DNA from: Geoalkalibacter ferrihydriticus DSM 17813
GTDB lineage: Bacteria; Desulfobacterota; Desulfuromonadia; Desulfuromonadales; Geoalkalibacteraceae
Assembly: GCF_000820505.1 (NCBI RefSeq)
Contig: NZ_JWJD01000010.1
Location: 44,450-108,449, forward strand
DNA: 64,000 bases
Reading direction: 5' to 3'
In this document: positions 682 to 14,236 of the stretch, in pieces
Position numbering within the stretch: position 1 is the stretch's first letter
How the letters are laid out: every line of letters starts with the position of its first letter
Made by a program: the position numbers and the translations under genes
Notes under the pieces: model-generated
The model's input: only the letters and a program-made list of their open reading frames with translations
Database searches by the model: none
What the model was told of the DNA's origin: nothing

Positions 682-1533
682 ATGACAATTGCTCGACGTA
701 TTGATTTGACGACATTGGTAGGGGCAGGTTTGTTTACGGTGGCTTTTGGGTTGCTGTATCACCATGCCATTGCTTCCATGGTTAACGACTGGAGCATCGA
801 TCCCAACTATTCCCACGGTTTTCTGGTGCCGCTGATTTCGGGCTATTTCCTGTGGATGAAGCGTGAGCACCTGCTGGAAATGACCCCGCGCCGCTCGCTG
901 TTTGGTTTGCTGGTCGCCCTGGGCGGGCTGGCCATGTTCCTGGTGGGCAGCGTGGCGGGGGAGTCCTTTACGATCCGCATGTCCATGCTCGTGGTTTTGA
1001 GCGGCGCTTTGCTCTTTGCCTGCGGTTGGTCGATTTTTCGAGAGCTTGCATTTCCCCTGGGGTTTCTGGTGTTCATGGTTCCGCTGCCCTACATTCTTTA
1101 TGACAGCGTCGCTTTTCCCCTGCGCATGATGATTACCAACTATTCAGTGGAGATCATAAAGTTTCTCGGCATCGCAGTGATGCGCGAGGGGAATATCATC
1201 CATCTGACCAACACCTCGCTGGAAGTGGCCGATGCCTGCAGTGGCATTCGTTCGATCATTTCGCTGCTGGCCTTGGCGACGGCCATGGCCTACATGTTTT
1301 TCAAGCCCATGTGGAAGCGCATCGTCCTGGTGGCTCTGGCTATCCCCATGGCGATTTTCGCCAATGGCGTGCGCGTGGTCGGAACCGGGGTGCTCGCCAG
1401 CCGTTTCGGCCCCGAGGTGGCGCAGGGATTTTTTCACGAATTCGCCGGCTTGGCGGTGTTTGTCCTGGCCATGGCGATGCTGGTTGGGGCCGCCGGGATA
1501 TTGAGTTGGATCGGGAGGTCACGCAATGGGTAA
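682..1533 (+). CDS. xrtA: Exosortase (PEP-CTERM sorting transpeptidase)
   Basis: Polytopic inner-membrane cysteine protease/transpeptidase, the functional counterpart of sortase, that processes proteins carrying a C-terminal PEP-CTERM signal. About eight hydrophobic segments are visible. The family triad is present: Cys186 in ADACSGIR, Arg231 in NGVRVVG and His252 in FFHEFAG. Its 283 residues match the core domain without a fused EpsI part, and EpsI follows as a separate gene overlapping by 8 bp. No strong ribosome binding site precedes the ATG; the 163-bp repeat array ends just upstream. PrsK, PrsR and PEP-CTERM substrates nearby favour type A, but the subtype is an inference. Being an exosortase is secure. 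Confidence 0.93.
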   Translation: MTIARRIDLTTLVGAGLFTVAFGLLYHHAIASMVNDWSIDPNYSHGFLVPLISGYFLWMKREHLLEMTPRRSLFGLLVALGGLAMFLVGSVAGESFTIRMSMLVVLSGALLFACGWSIFRELAFPLGFLVFMVPLPYILYDSVAFPLRMMITNYSVEIIKFLGIAVMREGNIIHLTNTSLEVADACSGIRSIISLLALATAMAYMFFKPMWKRIVLVALAIPMAIFANGVRVVGTGVLASRFGPEVAQGFFHEFAGLAVFVLAMAMLVGAAGILSWIGRSRNG

Positions 1534-2152
1534 GCGTTTGTTGCTGGTGGGTTTGCTTGTTTTGGGTTTTGCGCTTTACGTGCAGGCGCGCCCCTTTCAC
1601 GACCGGGTGCCGATCAAGCAGGATCTGGCCACCTTTCCCATGCATATAGAGGATTGGCGGGCCGCTGATTTCTCGCTGAGTCCGGGAGTTTTGGAGCAAC
1701 TGCGCGTCACCAATTATCTGATGCGCGACTACCGCCGCGACAACGAATCGGTCAATGTCTACATCGGCTATTATGAAACTCAGCGCGAAGGCGCCCAGAT
1801 CCATTCGCCTCGACATTGTCTGCCCGGCAGCGGCTGGGTGCCGACAAGTCATACGACGCGCACTTTTGAGATCGAAGGGCAGCGGCCCATCCATCTAGTG
1901 CAGGCGGTCTATGAGAAGGATTCCTTTCACGAGGTTTTTCTTTACTGGTATCAGATGAAGGATGCCACCATCACCAACGAGTATCTGCTTAAAGCTCAGA
2001 TGGTGTTCAATTCACTAAAATACCGGCGCAATGATGCTGCGTTTATTCGCCTTTCGGCACCGGTGCGCACCACCTTGGAGGATACGGTCGCCACCATGGA
2101 AACGTTCATGGCGGATTTCGTGCCCCTGCTGGATGATTATCTGCCCGAGTGA
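1526..2152 (+). CDS. epsI: EpsI family exosortase-associated protein
   Basis: 208-residue protein with an N-terminal membrane anchor (residues 4-22) and a periplasmic domain typical of EpsI (DUF3485), found either fused to or next to exosortases. Visible family features are the GYYETQREGAQIHSPRHC stretch with its conserved His-Ser-Pro and Cys, and a later FLYWYQ motif. EpsI proteins are linked to exopolysaccharide or exosortase function but their biochemistry is not settled. The gene starts inside exosortase after a GGGAGG site and its stop overlaps the prsK start, so the three genes are translationally coupled. Confidence 0.9.
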   Translation: MGKRLLLVGLLVLGFALYVQARPFHDRVPIKQDLATFPMHIEDWRAADFSLSPGVLEQLRVTNYLMRDYRRDNESVNVYIGYYETQREGAQIHSPRHCLPGSGWVPTSHTTRTFEIEGQRPIHLVQAVYEKDSFHEVFLYWYQMKDATITNEYLLKAQMVFNSLKYRRNDAAFIRLSAPVRTTLEDTVATMETFMADFVPLLDDYLPE

Positions 2153-4173
2153 TGTCCCATCTTCTTCTCGTCATTGCTTCCATCACCGTTGCGCTGATTC
2201 TTTTCGGTCTGCTGCTGCGGCGCAAGCCCTCAGCAGCGATCATCGCCTTGATCGCTGCTCTTTGCGTGGCGCTGACTGTTGAAGTCATCGACCTGCTCGC
2301 CCTGCGTGATCCGCAAAATCTTGAAAGCTATAAGCGTTGGGGATTGCTGGCTGAGTCCCTGCTGCCCTTTACCTGGCTTCTGTATACCCTGAAATTCGGG
2401 CGTCTGCCGGGCTGGCGCAATATCTCCTGGTTGCAGCGCGTTGTGCTGGCGGCAGCGGCATTCATGCCGCTGCCGGTTTTGTTGCTGCCGGTGGGCGACT
2501 TTTTCTATTCTCCCGATTTCGGCGATGAATTGATCCTGTTTCTGGGTAATCCGGGTTATTACTTTTTTATCGGCATTTTGCTTTTTCTGATCGTTGCTCT
2601 GGTCAATCTCGAAGTGACTCTGATGAGTTCGCCGCGGCCCGAGCGCTGGAAGATCAAGTACGAAATCATCGGCGCCGGCCTGGTTATCGCCTTTTTCCTC
2701 GTCTACTACAGCCAGAGCCTGCTGTATCGTTCCATCGACATGAGTCTTGCGCCGGCGCGGGCGGTTTTATTCATCTCCGCCATTGGATTCATTGCTTATT
2801 CGCGTTTGCGGCGCGGCGAGGCACCTAGCCTTCGCCTTTCACCCGACATGGCCTATCGCTCGGTGGTCGTGTTTATCATCGGTGTTTATTTTCTCGTTAT
2901 CGCTCTGCTGGGCGAGGGACTGCGCTACTTCGGCGAATCTACCCAGCGCAACTTTTTCATTACGGTCACTCTGATCGGCAGCGTAGCGGTTTTGGCTATC
3001 CTGCTTTCGGAGAAGGCCCGGCGCAAGATCCGCGTTTTTCTGCACAAGCATTTCTATCGCAGCAAATTCGACTATCGGCAGCAATGGTTGGATTTTACTC
3101 AGTGCTTGACCCAACCGCGTGACGCGCGCGAATTGCACCAGGCCATATTGGGTTTTTACTGTGCAACCTTTGGGTTTCGCGGGGCAAGCCTGTTTCTGAC
3201 GGACGATGAAGGGCGCTTTTTCGATCTTGTCGGGTTTTTTGAACGTGCCGCCTGGCGTGAAAAGGTTGCAGGGGATGGGCCGGTGATTGAGCGGCTGAGA
3301 GAAGGTGACTGGATCGTCGCTTTGGGCGAAATCCGCCTTGAGGGGGTGACTTCGCCTCTGATCGATTCTGGTTTGGCCTTTCTTGTCCCCCTGTTGTCCG
3401 AACATCGTCTGGAGGGATTTATTGCATTGGAGGGGCGAATAAATCCGGACGAAGTGCTGACCTATGAAGACTATGACCTGATGAAAGTTCTGGCTCGCCA
3501 ATCGACGGCTGCCATCCTGAACCTGCGCCTGTCCGCGGAACTTTCAGCTGCTCGCGAAATGGAACTTATGGGCCGCGTTTCGGCTTTTGTCATGCACGAT
3601 CTGAAAAACCTGGTGTCGAACCTGGGAATGGTGGTGGATAACGCCGAAAACTATCTGGATGATCCGGAGTTCCAGGTCGACATGCTCGATACCCTGCGCG
3701 GCACCGTGGGCAAGATGAAGGGACTGATTCAGCATCTACGCACCTTGCAGGAAAAACCCCTGTTGGAGCGGCGCAAATGCAATCTACGCCAAGTCGTGGA
3801 TGAGGCGCTGGGCAGCCTGAGCTTATCGAATGTCAGGGTGAGCGGCAACGGTGTCGAAGCCGATATCGATGCCGAAGAGATCCAGAAGGTGGTGCTCAAT
3901 CTGGTCCTGAACGCCATTGAAGCCGGCGGCAAAAACCAACCCGTATGGGTCGAAGTCGGCGACGACCAGGCCTGCATCCGCGTGCGCGACGAAGGCTGCG
4001 GCATGAGCGAGGAATTCATCCGCACCCGCCTTTTCAAACCTTTCGAGACCACGAAGAAAAAAGGTTTCGGCATCGGCCTCTATCAATGCAAGCACATCGT
4101 CGAAGCCCACGGCGGACGAATCGAAGTGCGTAGCGCGGAGGGTGAGGGTACGGAGTTTACTGTAATGTTTTGA
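2149..4173 (+). CDS. prsK: PEP-CTERM system sensor histidine kinase PrsK
   Basis: Membrane histidine kinase of exosortase loci. The first roughly 300 residues form eight or so transmembrane helices; a GAF-like segment follows (about 335-475), then the phospho-acceptor region with VMHDLKNLVSNLGM (His483) and a HATPase domain (NLVLNAIEAGG, DEGCGM, GFGIGLYQCKHIVEAHGG). The membrane input plus GAF layout is that of PrsK. Starts possible are GTG 2149, overlapping the epsI stop, or ATG 2152. Its partner PrsR is normally the next gene but here a GxxExxY gene lies between them. It probably phosphorylates PrsR to control sigma-54 promoters of exported proteins. Confidence 0.92.
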   Translation: MMSHLLLVIASITVALILFGLLLRRKPSAAIIALIAALCVALTVEVIDLLALRDPQNLESYKRWGLLAESLLPFTWLLYTLKFGRLPGWRNISWLQRVVLAAAAFMPLPVLLLPVGDFFYSPDFGDELILFLGNPGYYFFIGILLFLIVALVNLEVTLMSSPRPERWKIKYEIIGAGLVIAFFLVYYSQSLLYRSIDMSLAPARAVLFISAIGFIAYSRLRRGEAPSLRLSPDMAYRSVVVFIIGVYFLVIALLGEGLRYFGESTQRNFFITVTLIGSVAVLAILLSEKARRKIRVFLHKHFYRSKFDYRQQWLDFTQCLTQPRDARELHQAILGFYCATFGFRGASLFLTDDEGRFFDLVGFFERAAWREKVAGDGPVIERLREGDWIVALGEIRLEGVTSPLIDSGLAFLVPLLSEHRLEGFIALEGRINPDEVLTYEDYDLMKVLARQSTAAILNLRLSAELSAAREMELMGRVSAFVMHDLKNLVSNLGMVVDNAENYLDDPEFQVDMLDTLRGTVGKMKGLIQHLRTLQEKPLLERRKCNLRQVVDEALGSLSLSNVRVSGNGVEADIDAEEIQKVVLNLVLNAIEAGGKNQPVWVEVGDDQACIRVRDEGCGMSEEFIRTRLFKPFETTKKKGFGIGLYQCKHIVEAHGGRIEVRSAEGEGTEFTVMF

Positions 4174-4656: not shown

Positions 4657-6045
4657 ATGGAAAAGTTACTGATTATTGATGACAGCGAAGAAATTCGCAA
4701 GCAGCTCAAATGGGGCCTGGGTAAGGACTACCAGGTTTTTCTTGCAGGTGATGTCGAGGAGGGGCTGGGGCTGTTTCGTAAGCATCGGCCGCGGGTGTTG
4801 ACTCTTGATCTGGGGTTGCCGCCTGATGCCGATGGAGCGACGGAAGGGCTGCGTTGCCTGGGGGAAATTCTCAAAGAGAATTTTCGTACCAAGGTGATCA
4901 TGGTCACCGGCAACGAGGAGCGCCAAAACGCGTTGAAAGCCATCGAGATCGGCGCTTACGATTTTTACCAGAAACCCATCGAGCTGGCTGAAATCAAGGT
5001 CATTTTGCGCCGCGCTTTTCATCTGGCCGAACTTGAAGAGGAAAATCGCCGCCTGCAGAAATCCGCCGTGCATGGGTTGCCGGTCATGGCCGGGTTGTTC
5101 GGTCAGTGTTTGCAGATGCAGCAGGTGTTCACCACCATCCGCAAGGTGGCTTCGGCCGACGTGCCGGTACTGGTGCTGGGTGAAAGCGGCACGGGCAAGG
5201 AACTGGTGGCTAAGGCCATTCACGGGGAAAGCCTGCGGCAAGAGGGACCATTTGTCCCGATCAATTGCGGGGCGATTCCGGAAAATCTTCTGGAATCCGA
5301 ATTGTTTGGCCACGAAAAAGGCGCCTTCACCGGAGCGCAGGCACGCATTCAGGGCAAGGTGGAATTCGCCCATAAGGGAACGCTTTTTCTTGATGAAATT
5401 GGGGAAATGCCGCCGCTATTGCAGGTGAAACTGCTGCGTTTTCTGCAGGATCACACCATTCAGAGGGTCGGCGGTCGCGACACCATAGAGGTTGATGCGC
5501 GCATCGTTGCCGCGACCAATATCGATATGGATCAGGCTATTGCCCAAGGCGAGTTCCGCGAGGATTTGTTCTACCGCATCGGCGTGATTACCATCAATCT
5601 GCCGCCCCTGCGCGAAAGGGGCGAGGACATTTTGCTGCTATCCAGTCTTTTTCTGCATCGCTACGCCGAAGAGTATGGTCGGCCGGTTAAGAGCTTCAGC
5701 GGTGAGGCTCAAAAAGCCTTGCGCTCTTACGAATGGCCGGGAAACGTGCGGGAATTGGAGAACAAGATCAAACGTGCGGTTATCATGGCCGAGAAAGGCC
5801 AGATTGAACCGGGCGATCTGAATCTGGGCATAGGCGAGGGGGGAGCGGTGCGACTGGGTGAGCTCAATTTTGAGGGAATGACTCTCAAGGATGCGCGGGA
5901 CCTGGTGGAGCGAGACATGGTGTTGAGCACTCTGAATCGCGAGGGCGGCAATATCGCCAAGACCAGCGATATCCTCGGCGTGAGTCGTCCGACTCTTTAT
6001 GACCTGCTGAAAAAACATAATTTGCAGGGTGCTGCGGGGAAATGA
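4657..6045 (+). CDS. prsR: PEP-CTERM-box sigma-54 response regulator PrsR
   Basis: 462-residue NtrC-type activator. The receiver domain (1-125) has Asp51 in LTLDLGLPP; the AAA+ domain (about 150-385) carries GESGTGKELVAKAIH, the sigma-54 contact loop GAFTGA and Walker B LFLDEIGEMPP; the C-terminus ends in a Fis-type helix-turn-helix (GNIAKTSDILGVSRPTLYDLL). The arrangement with exosortase and PrsK identifies it as PrsR. It should remodel sigma-54 polymerase at promoters of PEP-CTERM genes, and a good sigma-54 promoter is present in front of the PEP-CTERM gene at 10.75-11.5 kb. Its native operon link with prsK is interrupted by the GxxExxY insertion. Confidence 0.92.
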   Translation: MEKLLIIDDSEEIRKQLKWGLGKDYQVFLAGDVEEGLGLFRKHRPRVLTLDLGLPPDADGATEGLRCLGEILKENFRTKVIMVTGNEERQNALKAIEIGAYDFYQKPIELAEIKVILRRAFHLAELEEENRRLQKSAVHGLPVMAGLFGQCLQMQQVFTTIRKVASADVPVLVLGESGTGKELVAKAIHGESLRQEGPFVPINCGAIPENLLESELFGHEKGAFTGAQARIQGKVEFAHKGTLFLDEIGEMPPLLQVKLLRFLQDHTIQRVGGRDTIEVDARIVAATNIDMDQAIAQGEFREDLFYRIGVITINLPPLRERGEDILLLSSLFLHRYAEEYGRPVKSFSGEAQKALRSYEWPGNVRELENKIKRAVIMAEKGQIEPGDLNLGIGEGGAVRLGELNFEGMTLKDARDLVERDMVLSTLNREGGNIAKTSDILGVSRPTLYDLLKKHNLQGAAGK

Positions 6046-6056
6046 CGCGATGCATC

Positions 6057-6120
6057 CCGTAGGGGCGACGCATGCCTCGCCCTTGCCTTGCCCGAGGCGA
6101 CGCATGCGTAGCCCCTACGG
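6057..6120. repeat. Imperfect palindrome between convergent genes
   Basis: CCGTAGGGGCGACGCATGC and GCATGCGTAGCCCCTACGG form an inverted pair with one mismatch over about 18 bp, around a GC-rich loop with a second CCTCG/CGAGG pair. It lies between prsR and the convergent kinase gene, and its right arm contains the stop codon of the latter (6115-6117). It may be a repetitive extragenic palindrome and may act as a transcription barrier. Confidence 0.8.
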
Positions 6121-8370
6121 TTCAACCACCTCTGCAAAGACCTCCACCAAGGCTGGATCAAACTGGCTGCCTGCCTTTCTGCGTAGTTCCTCCAGAGCTT
6201 TTTCTTCAGACATCTTTTTTCGGTAAGGACGATCTTCGGTCATGGCGCACCAGGCGTCGATGATGGCGAGAACACGCGAGAACAGTGGGATTCTCTCGCC
6301 TTTGAGCCCTTCGGGATAACCGCTGCCGTCATACCATTCGTGATGGTGCAGAATGGCGGTACGCACCTCCTGCGCGTATTCAATATCTTTGAGCAGATCG
6401 ACGCTGGCGTGGGGATGGATGCGCAGGGTACTGACTTCAGAGGCGGAGAGCTTCTTGGTTTTTCCCAATACGCTGTCATCGATGAGCATCAATCCGAGGT
6501 CATAGACCAGGGACAGATAAAGCCCCACACTTCGCTGTTCTTCTCCGATGCCGATTTTGTCGAGCAGCTGACCCATCAGCTCTTGCCGGCGGAGATTTTT
6601 CCCCATGGATTTTTTCTCGGCGCCGACCAGGTTGTCAAAAGAGGCGATAATGCGGCGCAGATCTTCTTCGGTATGACCGTCTTCGTGTAAGGTCTCGATT
6701 AGGTGGGCAATGCGTTGGCTGAGTACCGAGGCAATCTGAAGGTCGGCTTCCGAGAAGGGATCGCCTGACTTTTTATTGTTGAGATTGATGACCCCGACGG
6801 TGTTTCCGCCGATTATAAGAGGCAGTGACATGAAAGAGGGTGTCGTGTATTGAGCCGCCAGGGGGCTTGCGGCGAAGCGGGGATCTTCACGGATATCTTT
6901 GACCAGCAGGGGTTTGCCTTCGTGGGCAACCCAGCCGGCAATGCGCTCGCCGACGCGGATGCGGGTCTTTTTGATAATATCGGCGTCGAGTCCTCGGGCG
7001 CTGCGGATAATCAGATCCTGAGTGAGTTCGTCGCTGAGCATGATCGAGCAGGTGTTGACGGCGAGCAATTCGGAGATGAAATCGAGAAACAGATCCATGC
7101 TTGTATTGACGGCCGCCTCGATACGCTGGCGAGCGCCTCGGGGAATATGGATGCTTACGGAAAACCCTTCGGCGGTATTGGCGACCTCGAATTGCCAGTT
7201 GTGGACTTCGGCGGATTTCTTCGCCAGATAGAGCTTGAGGTTTTCATCGGAGCGCTCAGGATCGAACATGGTGCGCGAGGAGAAAAAGTAATCGGCTGTT
7301 TCCTCGGGAAGTTTGCGGTCGGTGGTCATGGTCAGCAGAATATGGCTGTTTTGTCGGCCGGTGAATTTCAGGTGACAACCGCTCTCCAAGTGCGGCAGGA
7401 TGCCTTCGAGAAGATTGATGAAAAATTGCGCCACCATGACCTTATCACCGGCAACATCGGGAATGTCCGCCGCGAAATCAACCTGAACCTTGATGTCCTT
7501 GCGACTGAACTTGGCCTTGAGCAATCGGGATTCGAGGGTCTCGCGCAGCGCCCGTTCGATGTTGATGATGGTGCGGTGCATGACGCGTGACTCGTCTTCA
7601 ACGCGCAGGAAATCGAGTTGGTTCTCAACGATATGTATCATTTTATCGATTTCGAGAGTGAGAATATCCATGAACTCGCGAAAGTCGCCGCCGTCGAGCT
7701 TGTCTGAGTTGCGCAGGTAATAGACCGCGCCTTTGGTCGAGTTAAGGGGGGTGCGCAATTCGTGGCTCACCCGGGTGAGGAATTCGGTTTTGGCCAGGGA
7801 CGCTTCGATGAGTTTGCGATTGACCTCTTCGTGCTCGGCGGCCTTGGCTTTGAGCTGATTGACGAGAAAGGCGTTTTTCAAAGCAATGGCGGCCTGGTTG
7901 GCGATGATCTGGATAAGGATGAACTCTTCTTCGGTGAAGGGTTCGCCACTTTTCTTGTCGTTGATGTTGAGAACCCCGAGCAGTTTTGTTTTACCGATGA
8001 TGGGGCAGGAGACGAAGGAGCGGGTTTTGTAGCGGTCGCGCGTCTTGGAAAAGCGCGGATCGCTGGCGATGTCGGCAACCAGTACGGCCTCGCGTGTCTG
8101 GGCCACTTGGCCGGCGATGCCTTCGCCGATGGCTGCGCGGTAGCTGCGCGCCAGATTTTCATCCAGCCCGCGACAGGTGAAGATAGAGAGCTGCTGTTGA
8201 TCGTTGGCCAGCATCAGCGAACCTTTTTCGGCCCCCGTATGATTGATGGCCAGGTCGAGCATGATGTTGGCGATGGCACTGATGTTGTCGGAAAGAATAA
8301 TGGCGCTGGAGATCTCTTGCAGGATCTCCAGTTTTTTTTCGCAGAGGTCTTTGGAGGCGAAGTCAGCCAT
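6115..8370 (-). CDS. GAF / histidine-kinase / GAF / HD-GYP-like sensor
   Basis: 751-residue cytoplasmic signalling protein without clear membrane helices. Order: GAF domain (about 15-170), HisKA-type helix with VSHELRTPLNS (about 205), a HATPase-like segment whose G-boxes are poorly recognisable, a second GAF (about 415-560), and a C-terminal HD-GYP-like domain (about 600-745). The last keeps HHHEWYDGSGYPEG and DRPYRKK, but the HD dyad position reads YDLGL instead of HDIGK, so phosphodiesterase activity is doubtful. A sigma-54 type promoter lies 75-90 bases upstream at 8445-8460. No clear ribosome site was seen, so the start is less certain. It may sense a small ligand and relay it, or bind rather than hydrolyse c-di-GMP. 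Confidence 0.82.
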   Translation of the reverse strand: MADFASKDLCEKKLEILQEISSAIILSDNISAIANIMLDLAINHTGAEKGSLMLANDQQQLSIFTCRGLDENLARSYRAAIGEGIAGQVAQTREAVLVADIASDPRFSKTRDRYKTRSFVSCPIIGKTKLLGVLNINDKKSGEPFTEEEFILIQIIANQAAIALKNAFLVNQLKAKAAEHEEVNRKLIEASLAKTEFLTRVSHELRTPLNSTKGAVYYLRNSDKLDGGDFREFMDILTLEIDKMIHIVENQLDFLRVEDESRVMHRTIINIERALRETLESRLLKAKFSRKDIKVQVDFAADIPDVAGDKVMVAQFFINLLEGILPHLESGCHLKFTGRQNSHILLTMTTDRKLPEETADYFFSSRTMFDPERSDENLKLYLAKKSAEVHNWQFEVANTAEGFSVSIHIPRGARQRIEAAVNTSMDLFLDFISELLAVNTCSIMLSDELTQDLIIRSARGLDADIIKKTRIRVGERIAGWVAHEGKPLLVKDIREDPRFAASPLAAQYTTPSFMSLPLIIGGNTVGVINLNNKKSGDPFSEADLQIASVLSQRIAHLIETLHEDGHTEEDLRRIIASFDNLVGAEKKSMGKNLRRQELMGQLLDKIGIGEEQRSVGLYLSLVYDLGLMLIDDSVLGKTKKLSASEVSTLRIHPHASVDLLKDIEYAQEVRTAILHHHEWYDGSGYPEGLKGERIPLFSRVLAIIDAWCAMTEDRPYRKKMSEEKALEELRRKAGSQFDPALVEVFAEVVEP

Positions 8371-8444
8371 AGGTTACTCGGAGGTTTGAAGTGGCGACGG
8401 CCCCGCGATTATTCTGGCGACGCAAGGTACTACACGAGTAAGGC

Positions 8445-8460
8445 TGCAAAACACATGCCT
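8445..8460 (-). promoter_or_regulatory. Candidate sigma-54 promoter of the GAF/HD-GYP gene
   Basis: On the minus strand AGGCATGTGTTTTGCA has the -24 GG and -12 GC separated by exactly 10 bases and a full TTGCA -12 box. Transcription would start near 8434, about 64 bases before the ATG at 8370. Confidence 0.6.
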
Positions 8461-8587
8461 GATTACGGTTTTGTTTGGCTGGGCAGAGCTTTTAAGTGTT
8501 TGTTTTTAATATTAAATAGGCTGAAAAAATATTGCTTGCCTTAAAAAAATGACGCTTTTTAAAAAGTCGTTTTTCTCTTTTATGTAA

Positions 8588-8616
8588 AATATTTCGACAG
8601 TAAATGTCGAAATATT
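8588..8616. promoter_or_regulatory. Perfect 12-bp inverted repeat upstream of subtilase
   Basis: AATATTTCGACA, a 5-base spacer GTAAA, then TGTCGAAATATT. It lies directly upstream of a candidate sigma-54 promoter (8623-8638). The half-site TTTCGACA recurs at about 12514, in the intergenic region before the secreted protein at 12761. It could be an operator or an enhancer site; no run of T follows that would make it a good terminator. Confidence 0.6.
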
Positions 8617-8622
8617 AAATTC

Positions 8623-8638
8623 AGGTATGGGATTTGCT
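8623..8638 (+). promoter_or_regulatory. Candidate sigma-54 promoter of the subtilase gene
   Basis: AGGTATGGGATTTGCT gives GG-N10-GC with a complete TTGCT -12 box; the -24 box is weaker (AGGTAT against TGGCAC). The predicted start near 8649 would give a leader of about 260 bases that includes the riboswitch. Confidence 0.45.
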
Positions 8639-8760
8639 TAATTGATAAAAACAAAGAGATGGGGGACGTTGCCAAGACTCTATGCATACAAAACTGGATT
8701 ATGGAAAGGAGGTTGTTAAGTAATTCATTGATTCTCTGATAACAATCGGTTAAGTCTCTT

Positions 8761-8855
8761 GTTTTCGAAAGGGTAAACCCCGGGTGACCGGGGGGCACAA
8801 AGCCTACGGCTCCTGGGTATGCGGCTTCAGGAGGGCCGGGTTACCGAAGAAACGG
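8761..8855 (+). ncRNA. GEMM-family (c-di-GMP-I / cGAMP) riboswitch
   Basis: The leader contains all GEMM landmarks: AAAGGGTAAACC, a P2 stem CCCCGG closed by a GUGA (GNRA) tetraloop, the joining GGCACAAAGCC, a P3 stem CTCCTG/CAGGAG, and the 3' element GGGTTACCGAAG. P1 pairs GTTTTCG with CGAAGAAAC. The family binds cyclic dinucleotides. Geobacter relatives use variants that prefer cGAMP, distinguished at the position of Vc2 G20; by eye this position reads G, which favours c-di-GMP, but the alignment is manual. A second hairpin (8850-8879, AAACGGG/CCTGTTT) follows before the ribosome site GGAGGG at 8897-8902, and could be the expression platform. Confidence 0.9.
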
Positions 8856-8908
8856 GCTCACCCTTCGGGCGACCTGTTTCACCACAAAATTAATCCGGAG
8901 GGATAATC

Positions 8909-10663
8909 GTGAAAAGGCTTTCATGGCGAACAAAAATTGTTGCTGCCTTTGCCCTGTGTTTTGGGGTGATGCTTGTCGGTGGACCCATTGACGCAGCGCA
9001 GGGTAAAGGATTTGTTTCCGGTGAACTCTTGGTTCGACAAAAAGCAGGGGCTTCCGCCGCAAGTGTGCGTGCTGCTCTCCAGGCCCAAGGAGCAGGAGAG
9101 ATCGAAGAGATTCCCGGCATCAAGGTCAAGCGAATTCGTGTTCCTGAGCACGCTCTTGAGAAGGTGCGAACCGCTCTGGCGCGCAATCCGAACTTTGAGT
9201 TTGTCGAGCCCAACTTTATCGGGCAAGGAACCCTGGTACCCAACGATACCTCCTATTCAAGCCAATGGCATTTGCCGCGCATCAACGCCCCGAACGGTTG
9301 GCAACTGACCACGGGCTCGAGCGATATCCCCATCGCTATTGTTGATTCCGGAGTCGATCCCAACCATCCGGATCTTGGTGCCAAACTGCTGCCCGGCTAT
9401 AATTGGCTGGATTTCAACACCGACACCAACGATGTACAGGGGCACGGCACCGCGGTGGCCGGGGCCGCCGCCGCTATCACCAACAACAGCCGAGGCATTG
9501 CCGGGGTGGCCTGGGAAAACACCATCATGCCCCTGGTGGTACTCAACAGCAGTAATTCGGCGAGCTATTCCAACATTGCCTCGGCCATTGTTTACGCGGT
9601 GGACCGTGGCGTGAAAGTCATTAACGTCAGCATTGCCGGCACGAGTTTCTCGTATACGCTGCAAAACGCCGTCGACTATGCTTGGAATCGCGGCGCCCTG
9701 GTGTTCTGCGCGGCGGCCAACAACAACACCGATGATCCCTTCTATCCGGCCGCCTTGCCCAACGCCATCGCCGTTGCGGCCACGGACCAGAACGACAACA
9801 AGGCGTCCTATTCCAATTACGGCGACTGGATCACCATTGCCGCGCCGGGGTCCTCCATTTACACCACGCTGCGCGGCGGCGGATACGGCGCACGCAGCGG
9901 CACCTCACTGGCCTCGCCCATCGCCGCTGGGCTCGGCGCATTGATCTGGTCACTCAATCCCGACCTGTCGCACGTTGAGGTTCTTGAAATCCTAAAAGCC
10001 GGCGCCGATGATTTGGGTGCGGTCGGCTTCGATCCCATGTTCGGTCATGGGCGCATCAACGTGCTGGGCTCTCTGTCTCTTGCAGAAAAAATTGTTGCCG
10101 AAACCGATGTAACGCCGCCGGTTGTCGCACTGACTTCCCCTGCCGACGGCTCCGCTGTGGCGGGCCTGGTGACGCTCGTCGCCGAGGTTGAGGACGACCA
10201 GGGTGTGGACCGGGTGGAATTCTTTGTGAACGGCAATCGCCTCGGTCAGGATACCGGAACCCCCTATATGTTCTCCTGGGATGCCGATCAGGTACCCGCC
10301 GGTTGGCATCGTCTGAACGCTCAGGCGGTTGATACCTCGGGGAATGTCGGCGTTTCGCAAGAAATCATGGTGTACGTCGAGCAGGCGAGTGATCTGGTGC
10401 CCCCGCAGGTTGCCATCAGCAACCCTCTGCCGGGCGCAAAGCTCAACAAGCAGGAATGGGTGCGTGCCGCAGCCTCGGACAACGTGGGTGTGGTTCGAAT
10501 GGAGCTGTATATCAACGGTTCTTTGATGACTGTCAACAATTCCGACACTCTTGCATGGCGCTGGATGACCCATAAGGAGCGCTCGAGTGTTTTTGAGGTG
10601 AGCGTCAAGGCCTACGACGCTGCTGGAAATGCTTCAGAGGATACGATTACTGTTTACAAGTAG
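8909..10663 (+). CDS. Secreted subtilisin-like (S8) serine protease
   Basis: 584-residue exported endopeptidase with a GTG start 6 bases after GGAGGG. Signal peptide about 1-32 (hydrophobic core VAAFALCFGVMLV); inhibitor-like propeptide about 33-108; S8 catalytic domain with Asp146 (IAIVDSGVDPNHPDL), His179 (GHGTAVAG) and Ser333 (SGTSLASPIAAG); then two Ig-like bacterial domains, each opening with PPxVA(L/I)S/TxP and a D-x-G-V pattern, that probably bind a surface or substrate. No PEP-CTERM signal is present. A GEMM riboswitch in the leader places production under cyclic dinucleotide control, fitting a role in remodelling matrix or cell surface. A strong terminator follows. Confidence 0.94.
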   Translation: MKRLSWRTKIVAAFALCFGVMLVGGPIDAAQGKGFVSGELLVRQKAGASAASVRAALQAQGAGEIEEIPGIKVKRIRVPEHALEKVRTALARNPNFEFVEPNFIGQGTLVPNDTSYSSQWHLPRINAPNGWQLTTGSSDIPIAIVDSGVDPNHPDLGAKLLPGYNWLDFNTDTNDVQGHGTAVAGAAAAITNNSRGIAGVAWENTIMPLVVLNSSNSASYSNIASAIVYAVDRGVKVINVSIAGTSFSYTLQNAVDYAWNRGALVFCAAANNNTDDPFYPAALPNAIAVAATDQNDNKASYSNYGDWITIAAPGSSIYTTLRGGGYGARSGTSLASPIAAGLGALIWSLNPDLSHVEVLEILKAGADDLGAVGFDPMFGHGRINVLGSLSLAEKIVAETDVTPPVVALTSPADGSAVAGLVTLVAEVEDDQGVDRVEFFVNGNRLGQDTGTPYMFSWDADQVPAGWHRLNAQAVDTSGNVGVSQEIMVYVEQASDLVPPQVAISNPLPGAKLNKQEWVRAAASDNVGVVRMELYINGSLMTVNNSDTLAWRWMTHKERSSVFEVSVKAYDAAGNASEDTITVYK

Positions 10664-11562: not shown

Positions 11563-11631
11563 ATCTTCAAGTGCTCAAATTTGCAAGGAAAAACATAAAT
11601 CCCGCCATTTCACTGTAAAAAAATCCGACAA

Positions 11632-12374
11632 TCAAGCTTTTCTTCTGCGATGCCACAGGCCCAAGCCGAGAAGTTGCGCGCCGAGCAAGATGATGGTGCT
11701 GGGTTCGGGGATGGGATCGAGAATCACGCCGCCGCCGCTTTCGTCCTCTTCCTGAAAAATTCCAAACAACTTAAGGCTTCCTTCGCCATCTTTGCCGACG
11801 TTTTGAAAGCGCACATAGGTGACGCCGTGCGTGGGGTCATGGTCGTTGGTGATGAACTGGTCATTTGGCGCCAAGGCGATGTTGTCCGTGAAATCATGTC
11901 AAAATACGCGGTTGTGAAGTAAGCGTTTGCAGCCAATCCGTCGCGTTGGAGAGGATTGTAAAGAGCATATTGACTGCCACCCTGGGACGCTGCGTGATAG
12001 TCTGGGGAGGCGCCGGCCTGTCCATCCATCAAGCCCCATAATGCCAGGTCTTCCGAAGTGCCGCCCAGTTGAACCGGATCCCCTGCGATTGTGTGAGCTA
12101 TGAGCGACCAGGAGCTGTAGTCAACGAGGTTTTCCAGAAAAAACCCGAATCCTGCGATGCCTGGTGCGTTATCCCCCCCCGAATTATCATCGAGAGCGAG
12201 CGGAGAGGTGTTTTGCAGGGCCAGGGAAAGCGTATTGCCGATGATGCTGATTTCCATCACGGCCGACCCGGTTCCACTTTCATGGCTGCCGCTGAAGGAA
12301 TAAGTCAGCGCCCAGCTATGCCCGATAAGGAAAAGACAAATGAGAGTTGCAAAAGCAAGCTTTTTCATGGTCAC
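11632..12374 (-). pseudogene. Frameshifted PEP-CTERM paralogue
   Basis: The reading frame starting at 12374 (or MKK at 12368) encodes a signal peptide and follows the intact paralogue closely to TTAYFDMI. It then leaves frame; the remaining sequence resumes in another frame as NDQFITNDHDPTHG and continues to DPIPEPST, the hydrophobic helix and WHRRRKA. The break is at about 11891-11895, where a run encoding ATTTTC in the ancestor reads ATTTC, a single-base loss. Apart from this the gene looks undamaged, so the change is recent, phase-variable, or a sequencing error. No sigma-54 promoter was found upstream, unlike the intact copy. Confidence 0.85.
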
Positions 12375-12760: not shown

Positions 12761-14236
12761 ATGATAAACAAATTTTTGTCAATCTGTACTCTTGGGCTTT
12801 TCTTATTTGGCAGTGCTGCCTGGGCGGATGATTTCTGGGTCGGCACCCTAAATGGTGGTGGGGAATCGGTTGAAAACGTATTGAATTTCGACTGGGCTTC
12901 CTCGGGTAGTGGCGTCGCTGAAAATGTAGGTCCTGTGGCTGGACCTCTTGAGATTGGGGATGTAATAACTTTTCGCTATCAAAGTTTTCTTACTCATTTA
13001 AATGATCAAACTGGGCAACCATTAATCCTTAGCGGATTGAGTATTGATTTTGAATTTACATTAGTAGCAGAAATTGAAGAAATTGTTGTTGGTTTGGAGG
13101 AGCTCGGTTCATCAACAGTAGCTATATTTGAAACATTGCCTGGCGGACAATTTTACATTTATTATGATGAAAAAAATAATGCAAATATTTCTCAAGGTTA
13201 TGGTTTTGATGATGGTGTTGTTATTGCTAGCGGTGTAATAATTGCTGGTCAAGAATCTGTTTTTAGCTTCAATTCGAGTACAAATATAGGCTTGGGTGCA
13301 TCTGTGATTTATGGAGATATAACTTATGTCAACTCTGAATTTATTGACCCATCTGCAAATATCGTAGGTTGGAGGTTTGAGGGAACCCAGCATTATCCTC
13401 CAATAGAATCAGATACAACCGCGTTTTTTGTTTCAACGCCAGGTGAAGGCAATCTTGATGAATATATTGTGCAAGCAACCGATTTGGTTCTTAAAGTCGA
13501 TGGTAGCAGTAAATTTTTAGTTGCACAACAAGATGTGGGCCCCTGCCGTGTCACCGGCGGCGGGCACAGCACCTCGGGTGAGGCTCCTGACGGCGAATGG
13601 GATGAGACCTTTGCCGAAGTGAAAACAACGGGCAATCCCAACTGGTACAACACCTATCAGTTCGGTGGCCAGGCCGGTGCCAATACGGCCATGCAGCCCC
13701 AGCCCAAAGGGCAATGGACGCATCATCAGCAAAAAGGCCCTGACGGCAGCTTTACCTTCCATGCGGGAACCGCAAGCGCGCCTCCGGGTACGGAAATCAC
13801 CCTGATCGAGTGCAGTGACCCCGGCAACTGTCTGCCGGCGCGTCCCGCCGAGTTCAAACAGATCGACTTCAACGGCGTGGGTACCTTCCGAAATATCCGC
13901 AGTGCGCCGCCCTCCTTGGCGCATGTGATACCAAACGAGACCTATCATTACTTTGAGGTCCATATTGAAGACCTCGGCGAGCCGGGTCGCGCCGGAAAAC
14001 AGCCTGATATTAACGATGCTCTCTGTCCACCGGAAGGATCGCCGGGTGAAGTGGCCAATTGCGGGTGTCCTGATTTTTATCGGATCACCATCTATGAGGG
14101 CGTCTATCCCGAATATGATCCTGTGACCGGTAAGGTTACGAACCTCAACAAGACCGATGTTATTTATGATGTTTATGGGTATCTGACCGGCGGTAACCTG
14201 CAAATTCATCCGCCGACAGGGTTTGACATGCAATAA
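12761..14236 (+). CDS. Large secreted protein of unknown function
   Basis: 491 residues with signal peptide MINKFLSICTLGLFLFGSAAWA. Two parts differ. Residues 23 to about 258 are beta-rich, encoded by AT-rich DNA, and resemble the body of PEP-CTERM-type surface proteins, though I do not recognise a family. Residues about 260-491 start with GPCRVTGGGHSTSG and contain paired cysteines, THHQQ, YHYFEVHIEDLGEPG and CPDFYRITIYEG; this resembles TGGG-type modules found at the end of secreted proteins, and is GC-rich like the chromosome. No PEP-CTERM tail or lipobox. A strong ribosome site GGGAGG precedes the ATG and a terminator follows. Confidence 0.8.
   Translation: MINKFLSICTLGLFLFGSAAWADDFWVGTLNGGGESVENVLNFDWASSGSGVAENVGPVAGPLEIGDVITFRYQSFLTHLNDQTGQPLILSGLSIDFEFTLVAEIEEIVVGLEELGSSTVAIFETLPGGQFYIYYDEKNNANISQGYGFDDGVVIASGVIIAGQESVFSFNSSTNIGLGASVIYGDITYVNSEFIDPSANIVGWRFEGTQHYPPIESDTTAFFVSTPGEGNLDEYIVQATDLVLKVDGSSKFLVAQQDVGPCRVTGGGHSTSGEAPDGEWDETFAEVKTTGNPNWYNTYQFGGQAGANTAMQPQPKGQWTHHQQKGPDGSFTFHAGTASAPPGTEITLIECSDPGNCLPARPAEFKQIDFNGVGTFRNIRSAPPSLAHVIPNETYHYFEVHIEDLGEPGRAGKQPDINDALCPPEGSPGEVANCGCPDFYRITIYEGVYPEYDPVTGKVTNLNKTDVIYDVYGYLTGGNLQIHPPTGFDMQ

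Follow-up and report, generated by a model that had tools for sequence, protein, structure and literature searches.

The window analysed here, a 64-kb stretch of DNA from Geoalkalibacter ferrihydriticus DSM 17813 (G000:C10:44450-108449; genome G000, 3.84 Mb in 23 contigs), contains a gene for a secreted S8 subtilase whose leader carries a cyclic di-GMP-I (c-di-GMP-I, or GEMM-I) riboswitch aptamer (Table 1). This is the only riboswitch found in the window at Rfam cut-offs (8762-8848), where two tRNAs were also detected. The protease matches Peptidase_S8 (PF00082, 164.9 bits), and its translation contains IVDSGVD, GHGTAVAG and GTSLASP, which we take to be the Asp, His and Ser motifs of S8 subtilases. 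On the same strand, 2.9-8.2 kb 5′ of the protease start, lie genes for XrtA, EpsI, PrsK and PrsR, all scoring over their NCBIfam cut-offs. An initial annotation, made from the letters alone, had placed the subtilase in an exosortase region and had described in its leader a perfect 12-bp inverted repeat, a GG-N10-GC promoter, a complete cyclic-dinucleotide riboswitch and a second hairpin before the ribosome site, read together as layered control. The exosortase setting is borne out by these neighbours. The protease itself gave no PEP-CTERM match in NCBIfam or Pfam at an E value of 0.001 and is therefore probably released rather than sorted.

Table 1. Features of the protease leader and its surroundings, in window coordinates
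Feature	Position	Strand	Remarks
XrtA	682-1533	+	over NCBIfam cut-off
EpsI	1526-2152	+	over NCBIfam cut-off
PrsK	2149-4173	+	TIGR02916, 530.1 bits against a cut-off of 300
PrsR	4657-6045	+	TIGR02915, 645.1 bits against a cut-off of 502.6
Divergent GAF-HisKA-GAF-HD-GYP-like protein	6115-8370	-	Tyr (VYDLG) in place of the HD histidine
Sigma-54-like site facing the divergent gene	8442-8461	-	123 nt from the box
PrsR-type box TGTAAAATATTTCGACA	8583-8599	-	TGTCGA-N5-TTTACA on minus, TGTAAA-N5-TCGACA on plus
Perfect 12-bp inverted repeat AATATTTCGACA/TGTCGAAATATT	8588-8616		5-nt loop; left arm within the box
Sigma-54-like -24/-12 site CAGGTATGGGATTTGCTTAA	8622-8641	+	GG-N10-GC at 8624-8637
Conserved 20-mer ATTGATTCTCTGATAACAAT	8727-8746	+	shared with G001 and G003 copy 1 (subtilase loci)
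P1 helix, 5′ strand	8758-8767	+	complementary to 8845-8856
c-di-GMP-I (GEMM-I) aptamer	8762-8848	+	RF01051; contact bases G8772, A8799, C8844
P1 helix, 3′ strand CGAAGAAACGGG	8845-8856	+	8849-8856 doubles as the 5′ arm of the second hairpin
Second hairpin	about 8849-8880	+	in the minimum-energy fold; contains the anti-ribosome-site sequence
Anti-ribosome-site sequence CCCUUCGGG	8861-8869	+	predicted to pair with 8894-8902 once P1 has formed
Ribosome site UCCGGAGGG	8894-8902	+
Secreted S8 subtilase, 584 aa	8909-10663	+	fervidolysin-like propeptide, two Big_7 stretches

The aptamer scores 56.9 bits against RF01051 (gathering score 35; E value 1.8e-8), so the complete riboswitch of the initial annotation withstands a covariance search. 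When 8600-9000 was searched separately, the top model of the clan was RF03167 (c-di-GMP-I-GGC) at 51.1 bits, under its cut-off of 59, and the leader has A8799 where the consensus of that model has G; the sister models RF01051, RF03167 and RF03168 likewise compete for the top score at the homologous loci described below. Alignments identify G8772 as the equivalent of G20, the base whose inspection had been proposed earlier, and A8799 and C8844 as the other ligand-contact positions, equivalent to A47 and C92 of the Vibrio cholerae riboswitch Vc2. The same three contact bases, G, A and C, are present in five aligned relatives (L049, L114, L115, L116 and L118). Because the position-20 equivalent is G and not the A that marks cyclic GMP-AMP (cGAMP)-type (GEMM-Ib) aptamers, the predicted ligand is c-di-GMP, not cGAMP.

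The aptamer recurs in front of the same enzyme in relatives. Subtilase homologues were sought in 277 genomes of the class, and of the 39 matches listed we inspected the leaders of the best 15 (at least 238 bits), the 24 lower ones falling outside this set; 18 further loci at 32-45% identity, from other phyla or distant proteobacteria, were excluded from the comparison. Among these best 15, one is not assessable because its contig (G195 contig C453) begins within the gene, and 10 of the other 14 have an aptamer 5′ of the gene: G000, G001, G003 copy 2, G004, G127, G146, G158, G187, G195 contig C71, where the aptamer is cut by the contig end and scores under the cut-off, and G200. The carriers belong to families f1, f18, f23 and f24, of which f23 and f24 fall outside the order of the window. 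In G003 the subtilase gene is duplicated in tandem (G003:C33:4559-8480): copy 1 has a PrsR-type box and no riboswitch, and copy 2 has the riboswitch with a sigma-54-like site and no box.

The 3′ strand of P1, CGAAGAAACGGG, can pair either with 8758-8767 to close P1 or, through the eight bases at its 3′ end, with CCUGUUUC (8873-8880) to form the second hairpin, which had been noted earlier and appears in the minimum-energy fold. On these predicted pairings P1 and the hairpin are mutually exclusive, as they draw on a common strand. Both alternatives are retained in relatives, the hairpin arms pairing at 7-8 of 8 positions in eight leaders and P1 at 7-8 of 8 positions in all seven leaders where it is readable. 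When the segment after P1 was folded alone, a helix between CCCUUCGGG and UCCGGAGGG formed in G000, G001 and G003 copy 2. Locking P1 lowered the mean accessibility of GGAGG from 0.79 to 0.01 in G000, from 0.27 to 0.01 in G001, from 0.78 to 0.00 in G003 copy 2 and from 0.15 to 0.00 in G127 (G195 was left out of the folding because of its truncated aptamer). Rows computed with P1 disallowed were dropped, since that constraint abolished every pairing of the bases concerned.

The pairing between the anti-ribosome sequence and the ribosome site appears to be maintained. Across ten leaders, the duplexes formed by each leader's own two segments were matched by permuted partners in 5 of 20,000 permutations; the figure was 13 of 20,000 without G004 and 38 of 20,000 for the eight leaders left after removal of G001 and G003 copy 2. 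Compared with shuffles of its own sequence, the duplex was equalled by 1-20 of 500 in eight leaders. Aligned in one register, eight leaders form 75 pairs, a total reached in 23 of 20,000 permutations (mean 65.4), and their covarying columns include one with C-G, U-A and A-U and another with U-G, C-G and U-A; G004 and G127 do not fit this register and are represented in the duplex-energy test. Whether judged by register or by energy, covariation of this pairing extends to nine of the ten leaders.

Two other readings of the leader were set aside. An intrinsic terminator was rejected, as a scan of 8371-8960 found no terminator-like site and the second hairpin is followed by ACCACAAAA. A leader peptide was not adopted either; the frame considered is that of G004 (L050 8157-8312), where 51 codons, opening with TTG behind a Shine-Dalgarno sequence, traverse the riboswitch aptamer.

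We propose that the leader is probably a c-di-GMP-sensing translational OFF switch for the secreted subtilase, with high c-di-GMP turning the protease off. Binding of c-di-GMP would close P1 (8758-8767 with 8845-8856) and thereby remove the 5′ arm of the 8849-8880 hairpin; the freed CCCUUCGGG would then pair with the ribosome site UCCGGAGGG and prevent translation of the protease. As c-di-GMP falls, the hairpin would form and trap the anti-ribosome sequence, and translation could start. Transcription would probably begin at a sigma-54 promoter (8622-8641), beside a PrsR-type box common to the divergent gene. High c-di-GMP marks the sessile state. The protease would thus be off in sessile cells and released as c-di-GMP drops, which would suit an enzyme used on leaving, and it might loosen the matrix; the neighbouring PEP-CTERM proteins are candidate substrates by position only. 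The initial annotation had suggested controlled matrix remodelling, to which this proposal adds the sign (repression), the box within the repeat, the strand common to aptamer and hairpin, and the anti-ribosome pairing.

The transcriptional layer was resolved into a repeat, a box and a promoter-like site. The perfect 12-bp inverted repeat is present as first described, its arms (8588-8599 and 8605-8616) being 100% complementary across a 5-nt spacer, and it is not a product of chance, since only 1 of 2,000 dinucleotide shuffles of 8371-8908 yields a 12-bp repeat with a 3-8-nt loop. Its core occurs once in the G000 genome; by eye, G004 and G001 lack the repeat and G003 copy 1 retains a 5-bp form. 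An independent operator was accordingly not adopted as its role, and we read the repeat as the box plus a mirror half, keeping a separate operator only as part of the alternative promoter reading below. The box agrees with motif 1 as Haft 2006 (PMC1569441) describes it in words: a 17-nt motif ending in TTTACA, upstream of PEP-CTERM genes, with PrsR as the proposed binder and a mean distance of 62.8 nt (minimum 32) to a sigma-54 motif. PrsR may likewise bind at 8583-8599.

Exact copies of the box lie at four sites in G000, namely the protease locus, two PEP-CTERM genes and a gene at 12761 whose product resembles PepA with a score under that model's cut-off. Only the exact box is specific, because a search allowing one mismatch gave 24 matches against 13 for a reversed control pattern. 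In seven relatives, TGTAAA-N5-YCGACA had 42 matches against 2 for the control. We inspected 39 box loci, comprising 9 of the 24 in G000 and 30 of the 42 in relatives. At 16 of them, representing 14 distinct genes, a simple pattern recognized a PEP-CTERM tail 3′ of the box, and 12 of these 16 have GG-N10-GC 50-64 nt from the box.

The GG-N10-GC motif of the initial annotation is found on the plus strand where it was placed, and its use as a promoter is plausible. Against a sigma-54 consensus, 8622-8641 scores 9/12; when the 200 nt preceding the aptamer were shuffled, 2 of 500 shuffles did as well. Comparable sites precede the gene in G004 (10/12; 2 of 500), G127 (10/12; 3 of 500), G003 copy 2 (9/12; 11 of 500) and G126 (9/12; 23 of 500), whereas those of G158 (8/12; 66 of 500), G146 (8/12; 50 of 500), G001 (6/12; 110 of 500) and G200 (6/12; 160 of 500) are unconvincing and G187 has no sigma-54 site by consensus before its aptamer. 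From 8622-8641, transcription would be expected to start near 8649. A sigma-70 promoter was not favoured: in 8371-8960 the plus strand has two matches (shuffle mean 0.8), which overlap the repeat (8594-8621) and the gene start (8878-8907), respectively.

Whether this site serves the protease is the part of the proposal most open to another reading. It is a real possibility, to which we give less than even weight, that the promoter is not of the sigma-54/PrsR type, that the box serves only the HD-GYP-like gene, that the repeat is a separate operator and that an unrecognized promoter near the conserved 20-mer drives the protease. Read toward the divergent gene, the box is oriented as published, and GG-N10-GC lies at 61 nt in G004, 123 nt in G000 and 139 nt in G003. 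Several observations weigh against our assignment: with respect to the protease, the box has the opposite orientation and its distance to the promoter, 24 nt, falls short of the published minimum (32); G001 has the riboswitch and the 20-mer without box or sigma-54 site; and a matrix built from ten PEP-CTERM promoters of this clade ranks 8622-8641 as the top site in 391 nt with a score that 25 of 300 shuffles match. With that matrix the best score was reached by 0 of 300 shuffles in G003 copy 2, 84 in G004, 180 in G127, 200 in G126, 147 in G001 and, for a different site, 5 in G158. What speaks for the sigma-54 site is chiefly its placement, which we consider a better argument than the scores: GG-N10-GC stands 139, 138 and 136 nt before the aptamer in G000, G004 and G003 copy 2, and 24 nt from the box in G000 and G004, both genomes that have box and site. 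The high best consensus scores in G127 and G126 point the same way. A sigma-54 promoter for the protease is thus plausible rather than proven, with the balance of likelihood on its side.

In having a 17-nt box, a sigma-54-like site and prsK and prsR nearby, the locus resembles PrsK-PrsR/motif 1/sigma-54 control as described in PMC1569441; it differs in that the target is not a PEP-CTERM protein, the motif does not read toward the gene from about 63 nt before the sigma-54 site but is reversed at 24 nt, and a riboswitch is added. Of the loci inspected, only those of G000 and G004 combine the box with a sigma-54 site. As the aptamer is kept across families, the sensor is steadier than the promoter layer, and the layered control first suggested remains plausible with layers that differ in age.

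Other observations concern this upstream region. Window positions 8705-8746 comprise AAAGGAGGT and the 20-mer ATTGATTCTCTGATANCAAT, which G000, G001 and G003 copy 1 share at their subtilase loci and which has one further match, with 3 mismatches, in five genomes. Before the subtilase of G126 (G126:C104, about 5750-5860; L047) there is, by eye, an apparent remnant of an aptamer 5′ half beside GG-N10-GC, with no Rfam match. The divergent HD-GYP-like protein retains HHExYxGxGYP-like residues, and the histidine of its HD motif is Tyr in G000, G003 and G004; for this reason its activity is doubtful, and we did not retain it as a phosphodiesterase feeding the switch. It is possibly a receptor instead of an enzyme. 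No match to its gene was found in the 19.9 kb of G001 searched.

As to the sign of the response, ligand binding could instead raise protease output, or control Rho-dependent or other termination with the anti-ribosome pairing secondary, which we consider unlikely. Several results nevertheless count against the proposed OFF switch. In G004 the ribosome site opens with P1 locked (GGAGG accessibility 0.27 to 0.58). P1 is costly in the free fold: locking it raises the ensemble free energy by 10.4 kcal/mol in G000, 8.3 in G001 and 10.6 in G003 copy 2, a price that ligand binding or co-transcriptional folding would have to pay in this model. The lock had no effect in G146 (0.21 to 0.21) or G200 (0.00 to 0.00), and G158 and G187 were nearly closed beforehand (0.04 to 0.00 and 0.17 to 0.00); in these distant leaders, closed or nearly so in the free fold, switching may be kinetic or of a kind that folding does not capture. 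The pairing is weak in G158 (68 of 500 shuffles as good) and absent from G004 (-3.3 kcal/mol; 423 of 500 as good), in tests, permutation and shuffle alike, that correct incompletely for kinship. No aptamer precedes four of the assessable homologues (G003 copy 1, G005, G126 and G188). Activation would also match the second G20-type GEMM of the genome, whose downstream genes encode a cytochrome and another subtilase and which has an ON-type terminator. It is countered by the lack of any terminator-like site in the scan of 8371-8960 and by the covariation of the anti-ribosome pairing in nine of ten leaders, and we retain the OFF switch. Least probable of all is a response to cGAMP, or to both dinucleotides, as in Geobacter GEMM-Ib riboswitches: two A20-type sites in the genome make cGAMP signalling likely present, and position 20 is a selectivity factor and no hard filter in Cd1 (PMC9262584), but G occupies this position in G000 and in the readable homologous leaders, and in a Geobacter riboswitch A20G changes selectivity from cGAMP to c-di-GMP (PMC6456294).

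The proposed circuit can be set beside known ones. The aptamer has the same fold as Geobacter GEMM-Ib, A20 copies of which precede exoproteins in G000, and differs in having G at position 20 and no terminator-type platform. In Clostridioides difficile a c-di-GMP-I OFF switch precedes zmpI, and in the LapD/LapG system low c-di-GMP frees periplasmic protease activity. The latter is similar in that a protease is freed at low c-di-GMP and different in that the receptor is a protein, not RNA. ZmpI/PPEP-1 cleaves surface adhesins close to their anchors and releases surface proteins (PMC6366702); it too is a secreted protease in a c-di-GMP riboswitch circuit, but a Firmicute metalloprotease with known substrates, whereas here there is an S8 subtilase with only candidate ones. 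Translational OFF logic has a precedent in Vc2, for which PMC9262584 describes an OFF switch that acts on translation and is governed by the stability of P1. The protease leader shares with Vc2 the aptamer class and the proposed P1-driven logic; it differs in its downstream gene and in the competition between the P1 3′ strand and a hairpin containing the anti-ribosome sequence.

In this class of bacteria, GEMM riboswitches are best known at cytochrome, pilus and polysaccharide genes (PMC6456294). The riboswitch class is thus known; new are this member, the pairing of aptamer and subtilase across four families, and the proposed OFF platform, which would link c-di-GMP to extracellular proteolysis through RNA with a directly testable ligand and sign. 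In the open-licence literature searched (titles and abstract starts, without the key 2015 papers), we found no description of an exosortase-linked leader that combines a riboswitch with a PrsR-type box, and an earlier mention of the aptamer-subtilase pair in Kellenberger 2015 or Nelson 2015 is possible.

Elsewhere in the genome, a G20-type GEMM is followed by a multihaem cytochrome gene and then by a second S8 subtilase (G000:C4:193667-197018; L045 1568-4919). A strong terminator is built on the 3′ half of this aptamer (fold z -4.76), which predicts an ON arrangement. In G001 and G003, GEMM and subtilase matches likewise lie 2-3 kb apart on one strand. We speculate, with little confidence, that the two G000 loci form a loaded dispersal switch, in which PrsK-PrsR and sigma-54 would make exosortase-sorted matrix proteins together with mRNA for a protease able to cleave them, c-di-GMP would silence that mRNA, and the second subtilase would respond in the opposite, ON sense. 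If so, a sessile cell would store protease message and a drop in c-di-GMP would immediately free the matrix without new transcription, while the two subtilases, through OFF and ON platforms, would alternate with one signal.

The two A20 (cGAMP-type) sites, at G000:C1:1385210 and G000:C7:4104, have terminators and precede long exoproteins; a scan of 150 residues showed that the C7 gene begins with an ESPR and a TPS domain, and the C1 gene is alike by eye. Weak GEMM matches of 33.2 bits at G000:C1:1385314 and G000:C7:4004 contain N and duplicate the neighbouring aptamer, and look like assembly-gap artefacts, not tandem riboswitches. Downstream of the protease (window 11630-12374), a PEP-CTERM tail (about 11638-11712) and the open reading frame at 11724-12374 are in different frames, which points to a frameshifted gene or a sequence error.

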